From Acetobacteraceae bacterium (GTDB lineage Bacteria; Pseudomonadota; Alphaproteobacteria; Acetobacterales; Acetobacteraceae), in contig PLSD01000028.1 in the NCBI GenBank assembly GCA_003164135.1, positions 62,001-126,000 on the forward strand: a DNA stretch of 64,000 nt, written 5' to 3'. Shown one piece after another: positions 22,802 to 50,274 of this stretch. The position numbers and the translations under genes are program-made. Within the stretch, counting starts at the first letter, position 1. Each line of letters begins with the position of its first letter. The notes beneath the pieces are model-generated. The model was given only the letters and a program-made list of their open reading frames with translations, was not told where the DNA came from and made no database searches.

Positions 22802-22950
22802 ACCACGGCCTCCCGCTCCAGCGCAATCGCCAGCAACGCGCCCTCCAGCACCTCATTGCGCCGCGCCAACTCAAATCTGATCGCCGCCAGCTCCCCCAGC
22901 ACCTCCGCAAAGGCGTAGCGTTGCAGGCGGCGGATCAGTTTTTTAAGCAT
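22762..22950 (-). CDS. 62-aa hypothetical protein, helical/charged
   Basis: MLKKLIRRLQRYAFAEVLGELAAIRFELARRNEVLEGALLAIALEREAVVQPSPSNSRSDLA; ATG inside the upstream gene's ATGCTTAA stop. Confidence 0.5.
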   Translation of the reverse strand: MLKKLIRRLQRYAFAEVLGELAAIRFELARRNEVLEGALLAIALEREAVVQPSPSNSRSDLA

Positions 22951-25900
22951 TGCGCCGTAAATCCAGCGTGCGCGGATACTCCACCGCCCGCACTTCCCGC
23001 GGTTCGGCCATCGGCCCCGGCGTATGGCCAAACGGGAAGAAGCGTGAGCGCCGGCGCGCCTCGGCGGAGTTCGCATTCACCGGGAAGTCGGCATAAGCCC
23101 GCCCGCCCGGATGCGCGACATGGTGGCTCATACCGGCAATGCTGCGGCCCGACCATTTGTCGTACACATCGAACACCAGCGGCACCTGCGCCGGAATTGT
23201 CGGGTGCAGCGCGGAGTACGGCTGCCAGGCTTTGAAGCGCACACCGGCCACATACTCGCCCGGAACTTCGGTCCGTTGCAGCGGCAATGCGGCACCGTTG
23301 CAAGCCAGCGTATACCGCTCATCCACCCAGCCTGAGACTTTCGCCTGCAAACGTTCCGCCGAGCTATCCACATAGCGCGCCGTGCCGCCCGAGGTTTGTT
23401 CCTCACCCAGCACGTGCCAGGGCTCCAACGCATGGCGCAATTCCACTCGCATGTCGCGCACCGCAATCTCGCCAACCTGCGGGAAGCGGAATTCCATATG
23501 CGGCGCAAACCATTCCGGGCTCAGCCCGAAGCCCAAACCACCAAGCTCCGCCAACGCATCTTTAAAGTCCGCCTCGGCATAATGCGGCAGCAAAAACTCG
23601 TCATGCAGACGCGTGCCCCAGCGGATCAACCGCCGGTCATACGGTTTGTTCCAGAACGCGGCGATCGCCGAGCGCATCAGCAGCACCTGTGCGGCCGACA
23701 TTTCCGCATGCGGCGGCATCTCGAACGCGCGAAACTCCACCAGCCCGCGCCGGCCGGAACCGCCATTCGGCGCGTACATTTTATCGATACAAAACTCGGT
23801 GCGATGCCCGTTGCCGGTCATATCCGCGAGAATGTTGCGAAACAGCCGGTCCACGAGCCAAGGCGGCGTATACTTGCCGTTGCTCACCTGCTGGAACGCG
23901 ATTTCCAGCTCATTCAGCGAATCCTCGCGCGCCTCATCAATACGCGGATGCTGGCTGGAGGGGCCAATGAACAACCCGCTGAACAGGAAGCTGAGCGACG
24001 GGTGATTATGCCAGAACCCCAGCATGGATTTCAGCAAATCCGGCCGGCGCAAAAACGGACTGTCGCTGGGCGTCGCCCCGCCCATCACCACATGGTTGCC
24101 GCCGCCGGTGCCGACATGCCGGCCATCCAGCATGAACTTCTCGGTCATCAACCCAACTTCGCGGGACACTTCATAAAGCTGCTCGGTGCGCTCGACGATC
24201 TCACCCCAGCTTGCCGCCGGGTGGATGTTCGTCTCAATCACACCAGGGTCCGGCGTCACGGAGAAATTCATCACGCGTGCATCTTCCGGCGGCAAATAAC
24301 CTTCCAGCACCACCTTCCGGCCCATGCCGGCGGCGGTCTCCTCCACCGCGGCGGTCAGTTCCAGCCAGTCGCTCACATCGTACAGCGGCGGATAGAACAC
24401 ATGCAAAATCCCATCGCGCGCTTCCACCGCCAGTGCGGTCCTCACCAGGCCTGGCTCCTCGCGCCCCACCACCGGCGCATCCTGCGGCACGGGGCGGAAG
24501 CCTTCAATTGAGCTGCCGCCATAACCTTCGCGTGTCAGCTGCATGGAATCGCGTTTGCGCAGCGGCGTGCGCGGCGCGAACGGGTCGGTCTCGAACGCCA
24601 CCTCCATATGCTCCGGGTCCGCCCAGGGCAGGCTCTCCAGCGGCAACCGCAGCCCCAAAGGCGAATCGCCAGGGATCAGGAACATCACATCGTCGCGGAA
24701 GAACCATTTGCCGCTCTGCCAGACGCGCTCGCCATCGGCGATAACCCGGCGCAGCGGCAACACGCTGCCCGCCGGCGATGCCAGCCCCTGGCCAAACACT
24801 TTCGCCAGCCGCGCCCGCTCAAGCTCGTCGCCAAGCTTGGATTCCATCGCCACCACGTTCGCCGGCAGCCGCTTCTCCCGCCACAAATAGTAGTGGATAT
24901 CCTCATACGCCTGGTTCACCAGCCCCGGATTCACCTGCAACCGTTCCGCCAGCGCGCCCGCGAACAGCGCCGCATCCGACGCTGCCGCGTTGTCCTTGTC
25001 ATCGTCGCTCGCCAACAGTTCCGGGTTCTTCCACACCGGCTCGCCGTCCGTCCGCCAGTGCGCGTGGATCGCCCAGCGCGGCAATTGCTCACCCGGATAA
25101 TGCTTGCCCATGTTGTAGGTCAGCGCCGCGCCCTTGCTCCACAGCGGCGTCAGCTTGCGGATCAACCGCCCGGCGAACTGTCTCTTTGTTGGCCCCAAAG
25201 CATCAATATTCCACTCCAGCGCCTCAAAGTCCGAGGCCGCGACAAAAGTCGGCTCGCCGCCCATGGTCAGGCGCACGTCGCCCTTGGCCAGCGCGCGGTC
25301 CACCGCCGCACCTTGCGCCAGAATATCCTGCCACACGTGCTTCGTATAAGGCTTGGTCACCCGCGGCGTCTCGGCCACGCGGGTTACCTTCATCTCAAAG
25401 TCAAATTCCGTCTCGCACTCGCCCACCAGCCCGGAAATCGCCGCCGCCGACGACGGCGAAGGCGTCGCCGCCAGCGGAATATGCCCCTCGCCGGCCATCA
25501 GTCCGGAGGTCGCGTCCAACCCGATCCAGCCCGCACCCGGCAGATAAACCTCCGCCCAGGCATGCAAATCCGTAAAATCTGAGGTCGGGCCTTCCGGTCC
25601 GCCACCTACCGGCTTCACGTCCGCCACCAGCTGGATCAGGTAGCCGGAGACAAACCGCGCCGCGAACCCCAAATGCCGCAGCAGATGAACCAGCAGCCAC
25701 GCCGAATCCCGGCACGAGCCTTTCGCCCTGGTCAACGTCTGCTCAGGCGTCCACACGCCGGGCTCCATGCGCACCACGTAGGAGATGCGCTCGGCCACCA
25801 TGCGGTTGATAAGCACCAGCATGTCCACCATGCGCAGTTCTTTGTTCTTGTGCGCCTCGTGCACCTCGCCGATCAGCTCCTGCAGCTTCTTGCCGGGATT

Positions 25901-26263
25901 GCGCAGCACGCGGAACGGCGCCAGCTCCTCGGCCAGAACTTCATCATAGGTAAACGGATAATTCTCCGCTTCCGGCTCCAAAAAGAAGTCGAACGGGTTA
26001 ATGGTCGCCATATCGGCAACCAGATCCACCACGACCTCAAAGCTCGTCACCCGCTCGGGGAACACCACGCGGGCCATGAAGTTGCCCTGCGGGTCTTGCT
26101 GCCAGTTAAGGAAGTGCGGCTGCGGCGAGACTTTCAACGAATAGGAAAGGATCGGCGTGCGCGCATGCGGCGCCGGTCGCAAGCGGATCGTCTGCGGTCC
26201 CAGGGCAACGGGGCGGTCGTATTTATACGAGGTACGATGCGTTATCGCGGCATGAACGGACAT
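22943..26263 (-). CDS. Transglutaminase-like N-terminus fused to DUF2126 (COG4196, predicted amidoligase-associated)
   Basis: 1106 aa; TG triad context RAKGSCRDSAWLLVHLLRHLGFAARFVSGYL and DLHAWAEVYLPGAGWIGLDATSG; C-terminal GGNHVVMGGATPSDSPFLRRPDLLKSMLGFWHNHPSLSFLFSGLFIGPSSQHPRIDE. Confidence 0.92.
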   Translation of the reverse strand: MSVHAAITHRTSYKYDRPVALGPQTIRLRPAPHARTPILSYSLKVSPQPHFLNWQQDPQGNFMARVVFPERVTSFEVVVDLVADMATINPFDFFLEPEAENYPFTYDEVLAEELAPFRVLRNPGKKLQELIGEVHEAHKNKELRMVDMLVLINRMVAERISYVVRMEPGVWTPEQTLTRAKGSCRDSAWLLVHLLRHLGFAARFVSGYLIQLVADVKPVGGGPEGPTSDFTDLHAWAEVYLPGAGWIGLDATSGLMAGEGHIPLAATPSPSSAAAISGLVGECETEFDFEMKVTRVAETPRVTKPYTKHVWQDILAQGAAVDRALAKGDVRLTMGGEPTFVAASDFEALEWNIDALGPTKRQFAGRLIRKLTPLWSKGAALTYNMGKHYPGEQLPRWAIHAHWRTDGEPVWKNPELLASDDDKDNAAASDAALFAGALAERLQVNPGLVNQAYEDIHYYLWREKRLPANVVAMESKLGDELERARLAKVFGQGLASPAGSVLPLRRVIADGERVWQSGKWFFRDDVMFLIPGDSPLGLRLPLESLPWADPEHMEVAFETDPFAPRTPLRKRDSMQLTREGYGGSSIEGFRPVPQDAPVVGREEPGLVRTALAVEARDGILHVFYPPLYDVSDWLELTAAVEETAAGMGRKVVLEGYLPPEDARVMNFSVTPDPGVIETNIHPAASWGEIVERTEQLYEVSREVGLMTEKFMLDGRHVGTGGGNHVVMGGATPSDSPFLRRPDLLKSMLGFWHNHPSLSFLFSGLFIGPSSQHPRIDEAREDSLNELEIAFQQVSNGKYTPPWLVDRLFRNILADMTGNGHRTEFCIDKMYAPNGGSGRRGLVEFRAFEMPPHAEMSAAQVLLMRSAIAAFWNKPYDRRLIRWGTRLHDEFLLPHYAEADFKDALAELGGLGFGLSPEWFAPHMEFRFPQVGEIAVRDMRVELRHALEPWHVLGEEQTSGGTARYVDSSAERLQAKVSGWVDERYTLACNGAALPLQRTEVPGEYVAGVRFKAWQPYSALHPTIPAQVPLVFDVYDKWSGRSIAGMSHHVAHPGGRAYADFPVNANSAEARRRSRFFPFGHTPGPMAEPREVRAVEYPRTLDLRRNA

Positions 26264-42728: not shown

Positions 42729-44300
42729 CTAACTGCACCCCGCCAGATTATACCCTGGCACCGGCAGGCCCTCCACGCAGCCCACACTCACCCCATCACC
42801 AGGATTCGCCGGGTCGTAAAGCGCGATCAATATCCGGTTACCCGCCACTTGCATCATGCTTGGTGTACCCAGCGCCTGCGTCTCGGCAAAAAAGCTCAAA
42901 AGCGCCTTGGAATCTCCGCTTTGCCCGGCATGGCCATAAACCGCCCACACCCGCTTACCCTGCCTCATCGCCTGTTTGGCGTGGTTCAAATCACCGGCGG
43001 AATCATTCAGCACCACGGTCTGCGTGCCTGGCGGCAAATACACGCGCAAAATCGGCAACGCCCCGCTATCGTACAGATACACCACGTCGCCTGGCGCCAC
43101 GTCCTGCGCCAGCAACTTCGCCGCAATGTCCCAGCGCGGTTTGGTTTCAGCATTGTAGTACGGCACCAAATTCGCAAACAGCAGCAACGCAACCCCGCCC
43201 ACCACAATGGCGCGCACCCGCGGCGAGGTATGGTCCAGCAACGCGGAAGCCCCGATACCGGCCAAAATCGCGAACGGCGCCGCACTCCATAGAATATACC
43301 GCGGCAGCAAAATCGGCCGCCAGATGGAAATAACCGTGAACATCAGGGGCAGGAACACAAAGGAAATACCCAGCACTGCAAGCATCGCGGGGCGGCGGCG
43401 CAGCACCCAAGCGGCGGTGCCCACGGCCACGGCCAGTGCTGCATCGATCAGGTAGATCAGCGCGAACGGCGTCGGCACATCCATGAAGCGGAAGGTCACG
43501 GAATCGGCCACCCGCATAAAATAAACCGAACCCAAATTGTACCACAGCCGCTCGCTGGTCAGCGGCGGAATCCACATCACGCTGTTAATGTAGCCCTGGC
43601 CCTGATACATCGTCATCGCCGCATAAAACGGCGCGCAACATACCGCGACGATCAGGTCCGCGATGATAAAATTGCGCAGCAACTGCCCCCGGTTGGGCGA
43701 TTGCACCAGCAGCGTGGCGCCTATCAGGTTACCAATCAGCAGCCAGGGCAAACCATCCCCCAGCACATCCAGCGCCGCCACTGAGCCCAGAATGAATGCC
43801 GCCCAGCCCCCCCGCGCCACCGGATTACGCAGCGGCTGGGAAGCACCGGGAATGTCCAGCGCCAGCCTGGTCAGGCCGTAAAGTGCTACCAGGATCAGGC
43901 ACATTTCCAGCATGTAGGAGCGCGCCTCCTGGCTGAATGCCAGTGCCACCGGTGAAAGCCCGATAATCAGCGCCGCGATAATCCCGGCCGTGCGCCCGGC
44001 GACACGGTAAGCGATCATGAACACCAGCATCACCGCAACCGCGCCAAACACCGCCGAGGGCAGCCGCAGCCAATATTGCGGATTCCCCAGCCCCACCAGC
44101 GGCGAAAGCAGCAAGAAAAAGCTCGGCATGTGGTGATTGAGGAATGAATCGGCCACCAGCGCCGCCGGCGCCAGCGAGGCGCGTTGCAGCGTAAACACCT
44201 CATCCAGCCAGAGCGGTCTTGCCCCCAGGAAACTCAGCCGTGGCAGCAGCGCCAGCACGAAGGCCGCGAACGGCCAACGCAAATAACGCAACCTGTTCAC
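42729..44300 (-). CDS. GT39-like membrane glycosyltransferase
   Basis: 523 aa; LGARPLWLDEVFTLQRA...LNHHMPSFFLLLSPLVGLGNPQYWLRLPSAVFGAVAVM, typical GT39 N-terminal loop. Confidence 0.82.
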   Translation of the reverse strand: MNRLRYLRWPFAAFVLALLPRLSFLGARPLWLDEVFTLQRASLAPAALVADSFLNHHMPSFFLLLSPLVGLGNPQYWLRLPSAVFGAVAVMLVFMIAYRVAGRTAGIIAALIIGLSPVALAFSQEARSYMLEMCLILVALYGLTRLALDIPGASQPLRNPVARGGWAAFILGSVAALDVLGDGLPWLLIGNLIGATLLVQSPNRGQLLRNFIIADLIVAVCCAPFYAAMTMYQGQGYINSVMWIPPLTSERLWYNLGSVYFMRVADSVTFRFMDVPTPFALIYLIDAALAVAVGTAAWVLRRRPAMLAVLGISFVFLPLMFTVISIWRPILLPRYILWSAAPFAILAGIGASALLDHTSPRVRAIVVGGVALLLFANLVPYYNAETKPRWDIAAKLLAQDVAPGDVVYLYDSGALPILRVYLPPGTQTVVLNDSAGDLNHAKQAMRQGKRVWAVYGHAGQSGDSKALLSFFAETQALGTPSMMQVAGNRILIALYDPANPGDGVSVGCVEGLPVPGYNLAGCS

Positions 44301-45337
44301 GCAACCGCCTCAGCCGGTCCCTGCGTCTGGGATTGCGACTGCCCGCCGACAGGCGCCGGCTCAGCCGGCTGCCAGTCGCGGAAAAACGCCCGGCCAATCG
44401 CGGCGGCAAGTTTCTGGATATGGATTTGCACAATGTCCAGATACTCATGCAGCCCTGCAGCAAGAATATGACCAATCGGCATTTCCAGCAGCAGCTCGCG
44501 CAAATATTCCGCCAGCTCAATCGCCTCGCCCGCCGCCGAAAGCCCGTAAATCCTGCGCAGATCATCCAGATGCGACTCCGCCCGGCGCACACACAGCAAT
44601 GCTGAACGCGGTGAGGAGGGATCGCGCAGCAGGAAATGCACCACGTCCTCGCTTGAAAAACTCGCCCGGGTGCGCCGCTTGAAGGCGTGATACCCGGCAG
44701 CCGCCCGCAAAATCGCGTTCCACTGCGTCAACTCGGCGACACGCTTTTCCTCGCGCCCCTGCGGCAGCAGCGCGGTATATTTAATATCCAGCATACGCGT
44801 GGTCTGGTCGGCGCGCTCGATCAACCGGCCGAGTTCATAAAAATACCAGCCCTGGTCGCGGTACAGCGTGCCCTCGGTAATCCCGGTATGCGCCTGCACA
44901 CCGTCCTTCAACTTGGTGCACAGCCGCGAGAGCGCATCCCCCTCCAGATCCTCCGGCGTAATCCGCCCGACAAAACGGTGGAATACGTTAATCTGGCGCC
45001 ACATCTCAGTGCTCATCAGCGGCCGCAGCGTGCGCGCGTTGGTCCGCGCATCCTCCAAATTTCCCGGCACCGAGGTCGGGTTGCCACGATCGAGTAAATA
45101 AAACCGCTTCACATGTGTCGCATCCGGCGAGAACCCGCGCGCCTTGAAGTTCTTTTCATCCGCATTGATACGGATCAGCCCGAACCAGGCGTCCGTCTCA
45201 AACCCCGGGCTCTCAAAACTCTGCGTCACGTCGATCAACCGCGCCAGGTTTTCCACCCGCTCCAGGTAGCGCGCCATCCAGAACAACCCCTCGGCATCGC
45301 GCGCGAGCAGCACGGCATCGAATCGCATCTGGTTCAT
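44297..45337 (-). CDS. Alpha-E domain protein (DUF403/COG2307)
   Basis: 346 aa; LLARDAEGLFWMARYLERVENLARLIDVTQSFE..., ELGRLIERADQTTRMLDIKY. Confidence 0.93.
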   Translation of the reverse strand: MNQMRFDAVLLARDAEGLFWMARYLERVENLARLIDVTQSFESPGFETDAWFGLIRINADEKNFKARGFSPDATHVKRFYLLDRGNPTSVPGNLEDARTNARTLRPLMSTEMWRQINVFHRFVGRITPEDLEGDALSRLCTKLKDGVQAHTGITEGTLYRDQGWYFYELGRLIERADQTTRMLDIKYTALLPQGREEKRVAELTQWNAILRAAAGYHAFKRRTRASFSSEDVVHFLLRDPSSPRSALLCVRRAESHLDDLRRIYGLSAAGEAIELAEYLRELLLEMPIGHILAAGLHEYLDIVQIHIQKLAAAIGRAFFRDWQPAEPAPVGGQSQSQTQGPAEAVA

Positions 45338-46809
45338 GCCCCGTCTCCTTGCCCGAAATCATCGGCCAGCACCCAGGTATCTTTCGACCCACCACCCTGG
45401 CTGGAGTTCACAATCAAACTGCCGCGCTTCATCGCCACCCGGGTCAATCCGCCGGGCAGCACCCAGCTTTCCTTGCCGGTAACAATAAACGGCCGCAAAT
45501 CCAGATGCCGCGGCCCGATCCCCTCCTCTGCCAGCGTCGGCGCCACGGAAAGCCCGATCATCGGCTGGCTGATCCAGTTGCCTGGATCGGCCAGGATGGA
45601 AGCCCGCGCCACATCCAGCTCTTCCTTGCTCGCACGCGGCCCAATGGTAATGCCGTAGCCACCGGATTCACCCACCGGCTTGGTCACGAGCTTGTGCAGA
45701 TTATCCAGCGTATATTGCAGCCCCTCCGCCTCGCGGCAGATATGGGTCTCAACATTCTGAATCAACGCCTCTTCGCCCAGGTAGTATTTGATAATGCGCG
45801 GCATATACGCATACACCGCCTTGTCATCCGCAACACCCGTACCAACCGCGTTGGCAATCGCCACGTTCCCCGCCTTCCATGCGCTGATCAACCCGCGCAC
45901 GCCCAGCATGGAATCCGGACGGAACACCGCCGGGTCGAGGAAGTCATCGTTCAAGCGCCGGTAAATCGTATGCACCCGCCGCAGCCCGGAAATCGTGCGC
46001 ATGTACACACGCTCGTTTTCCACCACCAGGTCAGCACCCACCACCAGCGGCACGCCCATTTCACGCGCCAGGAACACGTGTTCAAAATACGCCGAATTAT
46101 AAATGCCAGGCGAGAGCAGCACGACCTGCGGATCATCATCCCCGCCCGGCGCAATCTCCGTCATCGCCGCGCGCAGCCGCCGGCCATAATCATCAACCGG
46201 CAGCAGCTTTATCCCCGCCATCAAATCGGGGAAGGTCCGCAGCATCAAATGCCGGTTCTCAATGACGTAGGACACACCAGATGGTGTACGCGCATTATCT
46301 TCCAGCACGCGGAAATCGCCGAACTCATCGCGGATAATGTCGATGCCGCAAACATGCACATAAGTGCCGTGCGGCACCGGAAAATCCTTCATCTCCGGCC
46401 GGTAGTTGGAATTGCCGTACACCAGCTCGGCCGGGATAACCCCGTCGCGCACAATATGCCCCGGCCCGTAAATATCCCCCAGGAACGCATTCAACGCCGC
46501 GACGCGCTGAATGCACGCCCGCTCCAACAGGTCCCATTCACCCGCCGTCAACACCCGCGGAATACAGTCAAACGGCAAAATCCGGTCAATCGCGGTGGCG
46601 TCGGAGTACACGGTAAACGTCACGCCAAGGTCAATCAGCTCCGTCTCCGCGGCCGAGGCCCGCGCGCGCAACGCGTCCAACCCGATTCTACCGAGTCGTT
46701 GGATCAACCAATCCGGCACGGGCCCGGCGCCGGGCCGCTTGCGTGTCAGTTCACAAAAATATCGGCCCGGATCGTAATCCGGCCAGGTGTTGCGAAAAAT
46801 ATCGTTCAA
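45334..46809 (-). CDS. Circularly permuted type 2 ATP-grasp protein (COG2308)
   Basis: 491 aa; RVLEDNARTPSGVSYVIENRHLM, LLSPGIYNSAYFEHVFLAREMGVPLVVGADL, KLVTKPVGESGGYGITIGP, SWVLPGGLTRVA. Confidence 0.95.
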   Translation of the reverse strand: MNDIFRNTWPDYDPGRYFCELTRKRPGAGPVPDWLIQRLGRIGLDALRARASAAETELIDLGVTFTVYSDATAIDRILPFDCIPRVLTAGEWDLLERACIQRVAALNAFLGDIYGPGHIVRDGVIPAELVYGNSNYRPEMKDFPVPHGTYVHVCGIDIIRDEFGDFRVLEDNARTPSGVSYVIENRHLMLRTFPDLMAGIKLLPVDDYGRRLRAAMTEIAPGGDDDPQVVLLSPGIYNSAYFEHVFLAREMGVPLVVGADLVVENERVYMRTISGLRRVHTIYRRLNDDFLDPAVFRPDSMLGVRGLISAWKAGNVAIANAVGTGVADDKAVYAYMPRIIKYYLGEEALIQNVETHICREAEGLQYTLDNLHKLVTKPVGESGGYGITIGPRASKEELDVARASILADPGNWISQPMIGLSVAPTLAEEGIGPRHLDLRPFIVTGKESWVLPGGLTRVAMKRGSLIVNSSQGGGSKDTWVLADDFGQGDGA

Positions 46810-47120: not shown

Positions 47121-49331
47121 ATGTATGCCGTGGCTTCCAGCGATGAAATGATCGACCGGTCCGGCCGGATCCGGGCCTCCTGGGTTCCGGTCATGGAGGC
47201 CGTGCGCGATATCGGGCATGACGAATTGGCCCGCCGCTCCGCCGCACTGAACCGGCAGATGCGCCTCGCAGCCCCCTTCGGCGCCTCGCCGGTCCGCCAC
47301 TATGACCCCCTGCCCGCGCCGCTTACCGCGGTAGAATTCTCCTGGCTTGAGGCCGGGCTGCTGCAACGCGCCAAACTGCTCAACGCCGCGCTGGAGGACC
47401 TCTACGGCCCACAAACCCTGCTGCACGACGGCAGCCTCCCCCCGGCACTGGTGCTGGGCAACGAGCATTTCCTGCGCAGCCTGCACACCGGCGGCCTCCT
47501 CCGCTTCCCCCGCCTAACTTTCTACGCGGCGGATGTCGTGCGTGGATCAGACGGCCGCTTCCAGGTCCTGCGCGACCACACCGGCGTCATCCCCGGCCTC
47601 GGCCACGCGCTTTCGCTCCGCCGCATGGCCTCCAGCACGGTCCCGGAACTCTTCCGCGCCGGCGGCCTGCGCAGCCTGCGCCCGGTGCGGGAAATGCTGG
47701 TCGACCATTTGCAACGCTCGGCCGCGGGCGGCCTGGTCGCCGTGCTCTCCGCCGGCGCCGCCAGCCCCGCTTTGGCGCAGGACGCCATGGACGACGCCCT
47801 CCTCGCCCGCGCGCTCGGCGTCCTGCTCATCGAGCCCGGCGACCTCGCCACCCGCAACGGCGGCCTACACATGAAAACCCTGAGCGGCCTGCTGCCCGTC
47901 TCCAGCCTCATCCGCGGCCTTTCGGGCATAGACCTGGACCCGCTGGAGCAAGGCGGGCGCCCCGGTGCAGGCATCCCCGGCGCGTTCGGCGCCATCCGCT
48001 CCGGCGCCCTCGCCATGCACAACGCCCCCGGCAGCGCCCTCATCGAAGCGCCCGAACTTGCGGGATATATCGAGCCGCTGTTCCAGCGCCTGCTCGGCGA
48101 GGCCCCCCTCCTGGCCAAGGCCTCCGGCGACCCGGTGACCAACGCCTCCAAAGCCCCCTTCGTCAACGGCACCAACCTGGTCTCCACCCCCATCCTGTTC
48201 CGGATGTACTCCTGGCACGACGGCAACACCTGGCAGGTTCTCCCCGGCGGCCTCGGCTTCGGCCTGGAACAGAACAGCGCCGCGCAGGGCATGGTCGTCA
48301 CCGGCATGAAGGACGTCTGGATTCTCGACGCCGACGAGCCGCATTTCATCACCGGCGCCACGCATAGCGACCCGCCAACCCGCACCAAATTCCTCGCCGC
48401 CGCGCATCTACCCTCGCGCGTCGCCGACAATCTGTTCTGGCTCGGCCGCTCGGTGGAACGCCTGGAATCCGCCTCCCGCCTGCTCATGCTGGCCCTGCCC
48501 CGCCTGGAATCCGGCACTTCACTCCCGCGCGACCTCGCCGAGCGCGGCCTCATCGCCAAATGCCTGGCCCAGGCCGGGCTGCTCCCGGCGGACCTCGCGG
48601 GCGGCGCCCTTTCCGGCCGGCAGCTGCGCAGCACGCTGGCGCGGCGCAAACCCATCGCCGGTCTGGTCAAGGAGGTCGCCCGCCTGATCAACGCCGCCAG
48701 TGAACGTTTGAGCCCCAGTATGCTCGCCACCGTGCGCTTTGCCCTGCATCAGGCCAACGAATCCCTGCCCAACGAGGAAACCGCCCTCCCCTCCATGCTC
48801 AGCTTCGCCGCCACCTTCGCCGGCATCGCGGCGGAGAACATGTCGCGCGACGGCGGCTGGCTGTTCCTCGAAATGGGCCGCCGCCTGGAGCGCGCCGAAA
48901 CTTTAGCCGAAACCCTCGCCATCCTGCTCAACGCCGCGCCGGAGCGCCTGGAACCCGGCATGGCCCTGGGCATCGAGCTTGCCGACTCCGTGCTGAGCTA
49001 CGATCTGCGCCACGCCGGCATTCTTTCCCCCGGCCCGGTGCTGGAAATGCTGCTGGCCGATACCGGCAACCCGCGCAGCCTCGCCTACCAGTGCATCGTG
49101 CTGCGCAACTGCCTGTCGTACCTCGGCGCCGAGGACGACGCAGAATCCCTGAAACTGCTGCAACAGGAAGTGGTGAACCTCAGCGGCGAAGTCTCCGGCC
49201 TGTCCAAACCGCTCACCGCCATCGGCGCCCGCCTGCGCCTGCTCTCAGACCACGTACACCGCCGCTTCTTCACCCTGCTGCCCGAGGCGCATCAGCTCGA
49301 AGACGAACAGGAGCTGGAAGCCGCGCAATGA
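47121..49331 (+). CDS. Circularly permuted ATP-grasp-like (degenerate) plus alpha-E fusion protein
   Basis: 736 aa; N-half colinear with the 45334-46809 protein; C-half RVADNLFWLGRSVERLESASRLLML... alpha-E. Confidence 0.9.
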   Translation: MYAVASSDEMIDRSGRIRASWVPVMEAVRDIGHDELARRSAALNRQMRLAAPFGASPVRHYDPLPAPLTAVEFSWLEAGLLQRAKLLNAALEDLYGPQTLLHDGSLPPALVLGNEHFLRSLHTGGLLRFPRLTFYAADVVRGSDGRFQVLRDHTGVIPGLGHALSLRRMASSTVPELFRAGGLRSLRPVREMLVDHLQRSAAGGLVAVLSAGAASPALAQDAMDDALLARALGVLLIEPGDLATRNGGLHMKTLSGLLPVSSLIRGLSGIDLDPLEQGGRPGAGIPGAFGAIRSGALAMHNAPGSALIEAPELAGYIEPLFQRLLGEAPLLAKASGDPVTNASKAPFVNGTNLVSTPILFRMYSWHDGNTWQVLPGGLGFGLEQNSAAQGMVVTGMKDVWILDADEPHFITGATHSDPPTRTKFLAAAHLPSRVADNLFWLGRSVERLESASRLLMLALPRLESGTSLPRDLAERGLIAKCLAQAGLLPADLAGGALSGRQLRSTLARRKPIAGLVKEVARLINAASERLSPSMLATVRFALHQANESLPNEETALPSMLSFAATFAGIAAENMSRDGGWLFLEMGRRLERAETLAETLAILLNAAPERLEPGMALGIELADSVLSYDLRHAGILSPGPVLEMLLADTGNPRSLAYQCIVLRNCLSYLGAEDDAESLKLLQQEVVNLSGEVSGLSKPLTAIGARLRLLSDHVHRRFFTLLPEAHQLEDEQELEAAQ

Positions 49332-49410
49332 TTATTTGCACCATGTGCAGCCGCGCAATGATATTTCCCCTAATGCGCCACCGCGAAATGAAGTATCACC
49401 TCTCCGCATG
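49321..49410. repeat. Three imperfect 30-bp tandem repeats
   Basis: CCGCGCAATGATTATTTGCACCATGTGCAG / CCGCGCAATGATATTTCCCCTAATGCGCCA / CCGCGAAATGAAGTATCACCTCTCCGCATG. Confidence 0.6.
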
Positions 49411-49411
49411 A
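49328..49411 (+). CDS. 27-codon micro-ORF (candidate)
   Basis: MIICTMCSRAMIFPLMRHREMKYHLSA*; ATG overlaps the upstream TGA and its TGA overlaps the downstream ATG. Confidence 0.35.
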   Translation: MIICTMCSRAMIFPLMRHREMKYHLSA

Positions 49412-50274
49412 TCTACCGCCTGCACCACGCCACCACCTATGACTACGCCAAAGCCGTCGTCCTCGGCACGCATTTCATGCATTTGCTGCCGCGCGACCGC
49501 CCCGGCCAGTCGATCCGCGAGGCCGAGCTGAGCGTATCCCCCCAACCGGAAACGCGGCGCGACGAGACCGATCACTTCGGCAACACCACCACCACCGTCT
49601 CGCTCACCGGGCCACACCGCCAGTTTGTCGTCGCCCTAAGCGCCACCGTGGACGTCGAACAACCCGCCCCGCCGCCGCCCGCGCAAACCCCGCGCTGGGA
49701 GGCCATCGCCGTGCGCGGCCTTAAAGACCCCGACGTCGCCGAATTCTGCCTGCCCAGCGCATTGGCCAAACCCACCGGGGAAATTGCCGACTACACCGCC
49801 GTCAGCTTCCCCCCCGGCCGCACCATCCTCACCGGCCTGCTGGAGCTGAACCTGCGCATCTGGACGGACATGACCTACACCTCAGGTGTCACCAATAATT
49901 CCACCACCGCCGCGCAGGTCTTCAAAACCCGCGCGGGCGTCTGCCAGGACTACGCGCATTTCATGCTCGCCTGCCTGCGCTCGCTTGGTCTGCCGGGGCG
50001 CTACGTCTCCGGCTACCTGCGCACCTCGCCCCCCGCCGGCCAAACCAAACGCCGCGGCGCCGACCAATCCCACGCCTGGGTCTCCGCCTGGCTCGGCCAG
50101 GACATCGGCTGGGTCGACTTCGACCCCACCAACAACCTGCTGGTCTCCAATGAACACGTAACATTAGCCTGGGGCCGCAACTTTCAGGACGTGAGCCCCC
50201 TGCGCGGCATCATTCTGGGCGGCGGCCGGCATACCTTGCGCGTAAATGTCGATCTGGACCCGGTGCTGACCTGA
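49408..50274 (+). CDS. Transglutaminase-like cysteine protease-fold protein (COG1305)
   Basis: MIYRLHHATTYDYAKAVVLGTHFMHLLPRDRPGQ...; FKTRAGVCQDYAHFMLACLRSLGLPGRYVSGYLRT, SHAWVSAWLGQDIGWVDFDPTN. Confidence 0.93.
   Translation: MIYRLHHATTYDYAKAVVLGTHFMHLLPRDRPGQSIREAELSVSPQPETRRDETDHFGNTTTTVSLTGPHRQFVVALSATVDVEQPAPPPPAQTPRWEAIAVRGLKDPDVAEFCLPSALAKPTGEIADYTAVSFPPGRTILTGLLELNLRIWTDMTYTSGVTNNSTTAAQVFKTRAGVCQDYAHFMLACLRSLGLPGRYVSGYLRTSPPAGQTKRRGADQSHAWVSAWLGQDIGWVDFDPTNNLLVSNEHVTLAWGRNFQDVSPLRGIILGGGRHTLRVNVDLDPVLT

Follow-up and report, generated by a model that had tools for sequence, protein, structure and literature searches.

The ATP-grasp half of a fused ATP-grasp/Alpha-E protein from an Acetobacteraceae bacterium is, judging from sequence comparison, well supported as a pseudoenzyme, that is, as a homologue that lacks the required catalytic residues and is kept by selection. 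Its gene lies at positions 47121..49331 of the window, by which we mean the whole stretch of 64,000 nucleotides that was analysed. Two results go beyond the first-pass annotation of this DNA. In the genomes sampled, the apparently dead site is not peculiar to this protein but marks the COG2308-COG2307 fusion family as a whole, and the module that carries the glycine-rich loop has been excised recurrently.

COG2308, COG2307, transglutaminase and DUF2126 genes are found in many bacteria, and a role in making or modifying peptides has been proposed for them; we know of no substrate for these systems. The COG2308 and COG2307 families were reportedly described by Iyer et al. in 2009, a work outside the scope of our literature search, which found no study on the fused form.

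Results and Discussion

The features that carry the argument are given here with their evidence in brackets.

47121..49331, + strand: fusion gene, 736 aa, with an N-terminal degenerate circularly permuted ATP-grasp domain followed by a C-terminal Alpha-E domain (ORF; Pfam PF14403/PF04174 and PF04168 above cut-off; purifying selection)
47322..48326, + strand: pseudo-ATP-grasp domain, residues 68 to about 402 (PF14403 at 68-334; top fold match 3n6x, E 2.1e-15)
47526..47597, + strand: degenerate metal motif AADVVRGSDGRFQVLRDHTGVIPG, D138 kept, E replaced by R151 and N by H153 (alignment to the intact neighbour)
47748..47804, + strand: stretch without YFEH, SAGAASPALAQDAMDDALL (alignment)
48093..48209, + strand: junction left by excision of the Gly-loop/lid module, at residues 325-363, where 39 aa replace 98 (alignments)
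48408..49271, + strand: Alpha-E domain, residues 430-717, both ER motifs kept (R443/E446/R447; G586/E590/R591) (Pfam, motif conservation)
45334..46809, - strand: intact circularly permuted ATP-grasp, 491 aa, divergent from the fusion, with E170, N172, K377 and the Gly-loop present (PF14403 1-374 of 374, 514.5 bits; PDB 3n6x, E 1e-155)
45574..45750, - strand: part of the intact gene containing KLVTKPVGESGGYGITIG, about residues 354-412, to which nothing in the fusion corresponds (alignment; ends approximate by a few residues)
44297..45337, - strand: stand-alone Alpha-E protein of 346 aa, whose frame shares 4 bases with the end of the intact ATP-grasp gene (PF04168, 264.7 bits)
49336..50274, + strand: small transglutaminase-like protein directly 3' of the fusion (PF08379 and PF01841)
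22943..26263, - strand: transglutaminase-DUF2126 protein, putative amidoligase, 1106 aa (PF09899, 1237 bits)

The open reading frame, its coordinates and all motifs quoted in the first-pass annotation were recovered from the sequence. Pfam places CP_ATPgrasp_2 (PF14403) at residues 68-334 of the fusion, covering profile positions 4-270 of 374 with 218.6 bits against a cut-off of 32, and Alpha-E (PF04168) at residues 430-717 with 149.3 bits against 20.8. The PDB entry 3n6x was the sole real match in a profile search. It also came first when the predicted model of the fusion was used for a fold search, followed by glutathione and glutathionylspermidine synthetases; the model has a middling pLDDT of 57 and was used for family assignment only, and that of the intact ATP-grasp was poor, with a pLDDT of 37 from 21 near-identical alignment rows. 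The domain order, the adjacent transglutaminase gene and a DUF2126 gene about 21 kb off place the protein in the COG2308-COG2307 fusion family, and its closest named relative is an Acidocella aquatica protein with 90% identity, which suggests that the window derives from an Acidocella-like bacterium.

When aligned with its intact neighbour (28% identity over 344 aa, E = 2e-29), the fusion was found to have lost the E-x-N motif (E170 to R151, N172 to H153), K377 together with the Gly-rich loop, the D328-D329 pair and D437. The interval between LGEEAL and DLRPF shrinks from 98 aa in the intact protein to 39 aa in the fusion. The missing segment that had been proposed is thus real, while its size is a net 59 aa rather than roughly 70, and the junction, which had been put near 48.1 kb, indeed falls there. 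Whether the deletion is clade-wide had been raised as a check: every one of the 28 Acidocella/Methylacidimicrobium-clade fusions with sequence across this site shows the same gap, with 39 or 40 aa left in the interval, which excludes a sequencing or assembly deletion, and it recurs outside the clade. The loss of YFEH is limited to the Acidocella-type clade and its near relatives, and the RR pair, like YFEH a candidate for contacts with the substrate, is also lost in the Acidocella-type clade.

We surveyed the state of the active site in 39 intact proteins aligned with 111 fusions, all from Pseudomonadota and Verrucomicrobia. E170, N172, D328, D329, K377, G383, G384, G386 and D437 are invariant in 39/39 intact proteins. 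Among the 111 fusions, E170 is kept in one, N172 in none (mostly R or H stands instead), D329 in three and K377 in 11; D437 does not occur among the residues listed for that position, and the glycines of the loop are scattered or absent. Because E and N are lost in nearly all of the fusions and kept in every intact protein, the pseudo-site belongs to the fusion family. The apparently sole fusion that still carries the E of the E-x-N motif (L113, VLEDRA) already has R in place of its N. Residues D157, R160, R284, D292, N320, R439, D477 and W479 are near-invariant in the fusions as in the intact proteins. The pocket has therefore not simply been neutralised, and it could bind a ligand.

By eye, the intact protein's motifs D-x(12)-E-x-N and KPxxGxxG resemble D318/E330/N332 and K533-P in glutathionylspermidine synthetase (GspS) of E. 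coli, residues which we take from the 2io7-2io9 structures to be ligands. An hhalign comparison of the intact protein with the E. coli GspS profile gave no significant alignment, so that the residue mapping is a motif match by eye only.

Purifying selection acts on the fusion gene. Comparison of close relatives gave dN/dS values of 0.14-0.22 in its ATP-grasp half and 0.08-0.13 in its Alpha-E half, as against 0.06-0.08 for the intact gene; of the two halves of the fusion, the dead one is the less constrained. The value for the ATP-grasp half shows that the gene is maintained and not decaying. In the window protein, R443, E446-R447 and E590-R591 of the Alpha-E domain are kept, and the ER motifs are retained in 109-111 of the 111 fusions. 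The earlier description of the whole fusion as a pseudoenzyme therefore has to be narrowed: the term fits the ATP-grasp domain only, in which residues invariant in 39 intact proteins are nearly all lost in 111 fusions, and the Alpha-E half, which is not degenerate, looks intact.

A deletion unique to the clade of the window protein was considered and ruled out. A module of 57-61 aa is absent from 41 fusions in at least eight lineages, one of them in another class. These short forms comprise 40 of the 111 fusions and one protein of another class in the same phylum (L160), and they hold 37-48 aa where the others have about 98. Two trees were built from non-overlapping parts of the protein. On well-supported branches, the tree built from the sequence preceding the gap requires six or more changes of state, or seven losses if loss is irreversible. 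The tree of the part after the gap, with Alpha-E and L160 included, forces eight changes (bootstrap 5-95% range 8 to 8), with some deep branches long and their placement uncertain. Short and long forms stand as sister pairs (L075/L087, L070/L081 and L034/L060), and the alignment puts the end points of the excision near the same places in each lineage. In an evenly drawn alphaproteobacterial sample the short form was found in 3 of 43 fusions; its larger share in the alignment of 111 is due to the query being a short protein. A tie between loss of the lid and loss of DUF2126 was unsupported, DUF2126 being present in 14 of 17 short-form and 22 of 23 long-form genomes. These were chosen genomes: two of the short-form ones are verrucomicrobial and the rest are Acetobacteraceae or probably so, and the long-form ones are all Acetobacteraceae.

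The fusion occurs in 43 of 289 alphaproteobacterial genomes. An intact stand-alone copy accompanies it, among the matches listed, in 40 of these 43; two of the other three genomes are incomplete, and one has a second match outside those listed. Intact copies only were found in about 67 of the 289 genomes, again among the matches listed. DUF2126 is present in 35/43 fusion genomes versus 9/246 others (Fisher p about 5e-29), and in 33 of the 43 it lies on the fusion's contig within about 5 kb. The small transglutaminase gene stands next to the fusion also at loci L011, L012, L021, L022, L031 and L066. In the window, the distance of about 21 kb between DUF2126 gene and fusion, which adjoin in most other genomes, means that the module is split in this lineage. 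The intact ATP-grasp gene divergently adjoins the fusion in those Acidocella loci that extend far enough upstream.

The fusions of Methylacidimicrobium tartarophylax (L021 2-2122) and of the verrucomicrobium LP2A (L022 6971-9187) are nested within the Acidocella clade, with 65-66% identity to the window's protein, a nesting that speaks for horizontal transfer among acidophiles across phylum boundaries. In the verrucomicrobial fusion genomes the intact copy lies on a separate contig. Between Verrucomicrobia and Acidocella-like bacteria, the fusion and transglutaminase proteins (in LP2A also DUF2126) are 65-68% identical, as against about 50% for the intact copies; in LP2A itself, the linked fusion, transglutaminase and DUF2126 share 66-68% with those of the window, and the intact ATP-grasp on another contig shares 50%. 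The difference in identity suggests that the fusion was transferred horizontally together with the transglutaminase and perhaps DUF2126, while the intact gene that originally accompanied it stayed behind.

From these data we favour, with a probability of roughly 0.6, a reading in which the fusion is a non-catalytic ATP-grasp scaffold that carries Alpha-E within an amide-bond-forming DUF2126/transglutaminase module, with the intact pair as the ligase. The ATP-grasp half would keep its fold and part of its substrate-side surface. With E-x-N gone it would be unable to ligate metal, and with the lysine, the Gly-rich loop and the lid module excised it would be unable to grip ATP. The subunit would then hold an intact Alpha-E, and possibly a substrate as well, in place within a module of the DUF2126-transglutaminase and the small transglutaminase, and the separate intact ATP-grasp/Alpha-E pair, nearly always in the same cell, would act as the ligase. 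The absence of catalysis, the scaffold role, the physical partners and the chemistry of the module are all what we infer for the fusion. A wider version, to which we give slightly less than even odds, sees in the fusions a widespread family of subunits without catalysis of their own, dedicated to an amide-forming machine of DUF2126 and transglutaminase. The active site would have died in their common ancestor; the lid, then detachable, would have been excised at least eight times at nearly the same ends, leaving a stable truncated grasp fold that scaffolds Alpha-E.

The main rival to the scaffold reading, which we judge improbable on balance, sees in the dead domain a ligand-binding sensor, a receptor for a peptide, an amine or a product that would control the Alpha-E half or a partner ligase. 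It would account for D157, R160, R284, N320, R439, D477 and W479 being near-invariant in intact proteins and fusions alike, residues that a pure spacer would not need. These residues may, however, be structural, and YFEH and the RR pair, the candidate substrate residues, have been lost in the Acidocella-type clade. We are also doubtful about the proposal of the first-pass annotation that the fusion regulates or scaffolds specifically the neighbouring intact ATP-grasp, as a heterodimer. The divergent arrangement seen wherever an Acidocella locus covers enough upstream sequence, together with the intact copy in 40/43 alphaproteobacterial fusion genomes (among the matches listed) and on another contig in the verrucomicrobial ones, agrees with such pairing, but in other lineages it is DUF2126 and the transglutaminase that share the operon with the fusion. 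Moreover, the transfer to Verrucomicrobia without the intact neighbour, as read from 65-68% versus about 50% identity, speaks mildly against a strict private pairing.

Residue loss alone is, to be sure, no proof of inactivity: some pseudoenzymes use other chemistry, and cases of atypical catalysis are known among other proteins taken for pseudoenzymes. A divergent enzyme that remains active through unusual metal or nucleotide binding would explain why D157 and R439 are kept and why the gene is under purifying selection. We nevertheless regard it as very improbable here, given that two of the three metal ligands are gone along with the entire Gly-loop/lid module, and that the lid was repeatedly excised while the gene was still kept. 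A decaying gene or an assembly artefact has a practically negligible chance of being correct. The fusion does evolve faster than the intact copy (0.14-0.22 versus 0.06-0.08), but each of the 25 close relatives aligned (66-90% identity) has an open frame of complete or almost complete length and shares the gap, purifying selection is strong and Alpha-E is intact.

With the stand-alone COG2308/PF14403 proteins, which include the ATP-grasp of the Anbu operon and 3n6x, the best PDB match of the fusion in sequence and fold, the window protein shares fold and family; it differs by the absence of E-x-N, the K/Gly-loop, D328-D329, D437 and the 59-aa module, and by Alpha-E on the same chain. With the long COG2308-COG2307 fusions of Pseudomonadota (about 800-1000 aa) it has in common the domain order, the loss of E-x-N and Gly-loop, an intact Alpha-E and DUF2126/transglutaminase neighbours. 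Unlike it, the long fusions have a lid segment of undiminished length and as a rule still carry YFEH and RR; the DUF2126 gene of the window, moreover, has moved about 21 kb away. As in Anbu operons, ATP-grasp, Alpha-E and transglutaminase genes are grouped in the window, but no Anbu gene was found beside them and a fused pseudo copy is added. The sole PF00227 match in the genome, either HslV or Anbu, is a 205-aa frame on contig C45 (28982-29497), far from the ATP-grasp genes. A stand-alone ATP-grasp homologue encoded in an Anbu operon of Yersinia does release phosphate from ATP; a complex with Anbu was not detected there (PMC6376114). A comparable way of working is seen in the tubulin-tyrosine-ligase-like protein TTLL12, whose ATP-grasp-type ligase domain was reported not to catalyse tubulin tyrosine ligation (PMC3520985). 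Here too such a domain is joined to a second one, in an unrelated, eukaryotic family. We know of no recurrent excision of the nucleotide lid in TTLL12.

That one of two ATP-grasp copies is seemingly dead family-wide shows experimenters which copy to assay and directs attention, within the fusion, to Alpha-E as the part that works. The short forms are natural deletion variants with which the function of the lid can be probed. Indeed, the repeated excision of one nucleotide-binding module is a clean natural experiment on the way from enzyme to scaffold, and it suggests that the protein has taken on a new role as a partner without catalysis of its own.

Two minor observations concern individual loci. 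On a low-coverage contig of a metagenome-assembled genome (L006 5180-6690), the intact ATP-grasp is split into two overlapping frames, probably by a sequencing error. The DUF2126 protein of LP2A (L164 5435-9055, 1207 aa) is matched by its profile in two directly adjoining pieces (3-532 and 482-826), which hints at a short insertion or duplication inside the protein.
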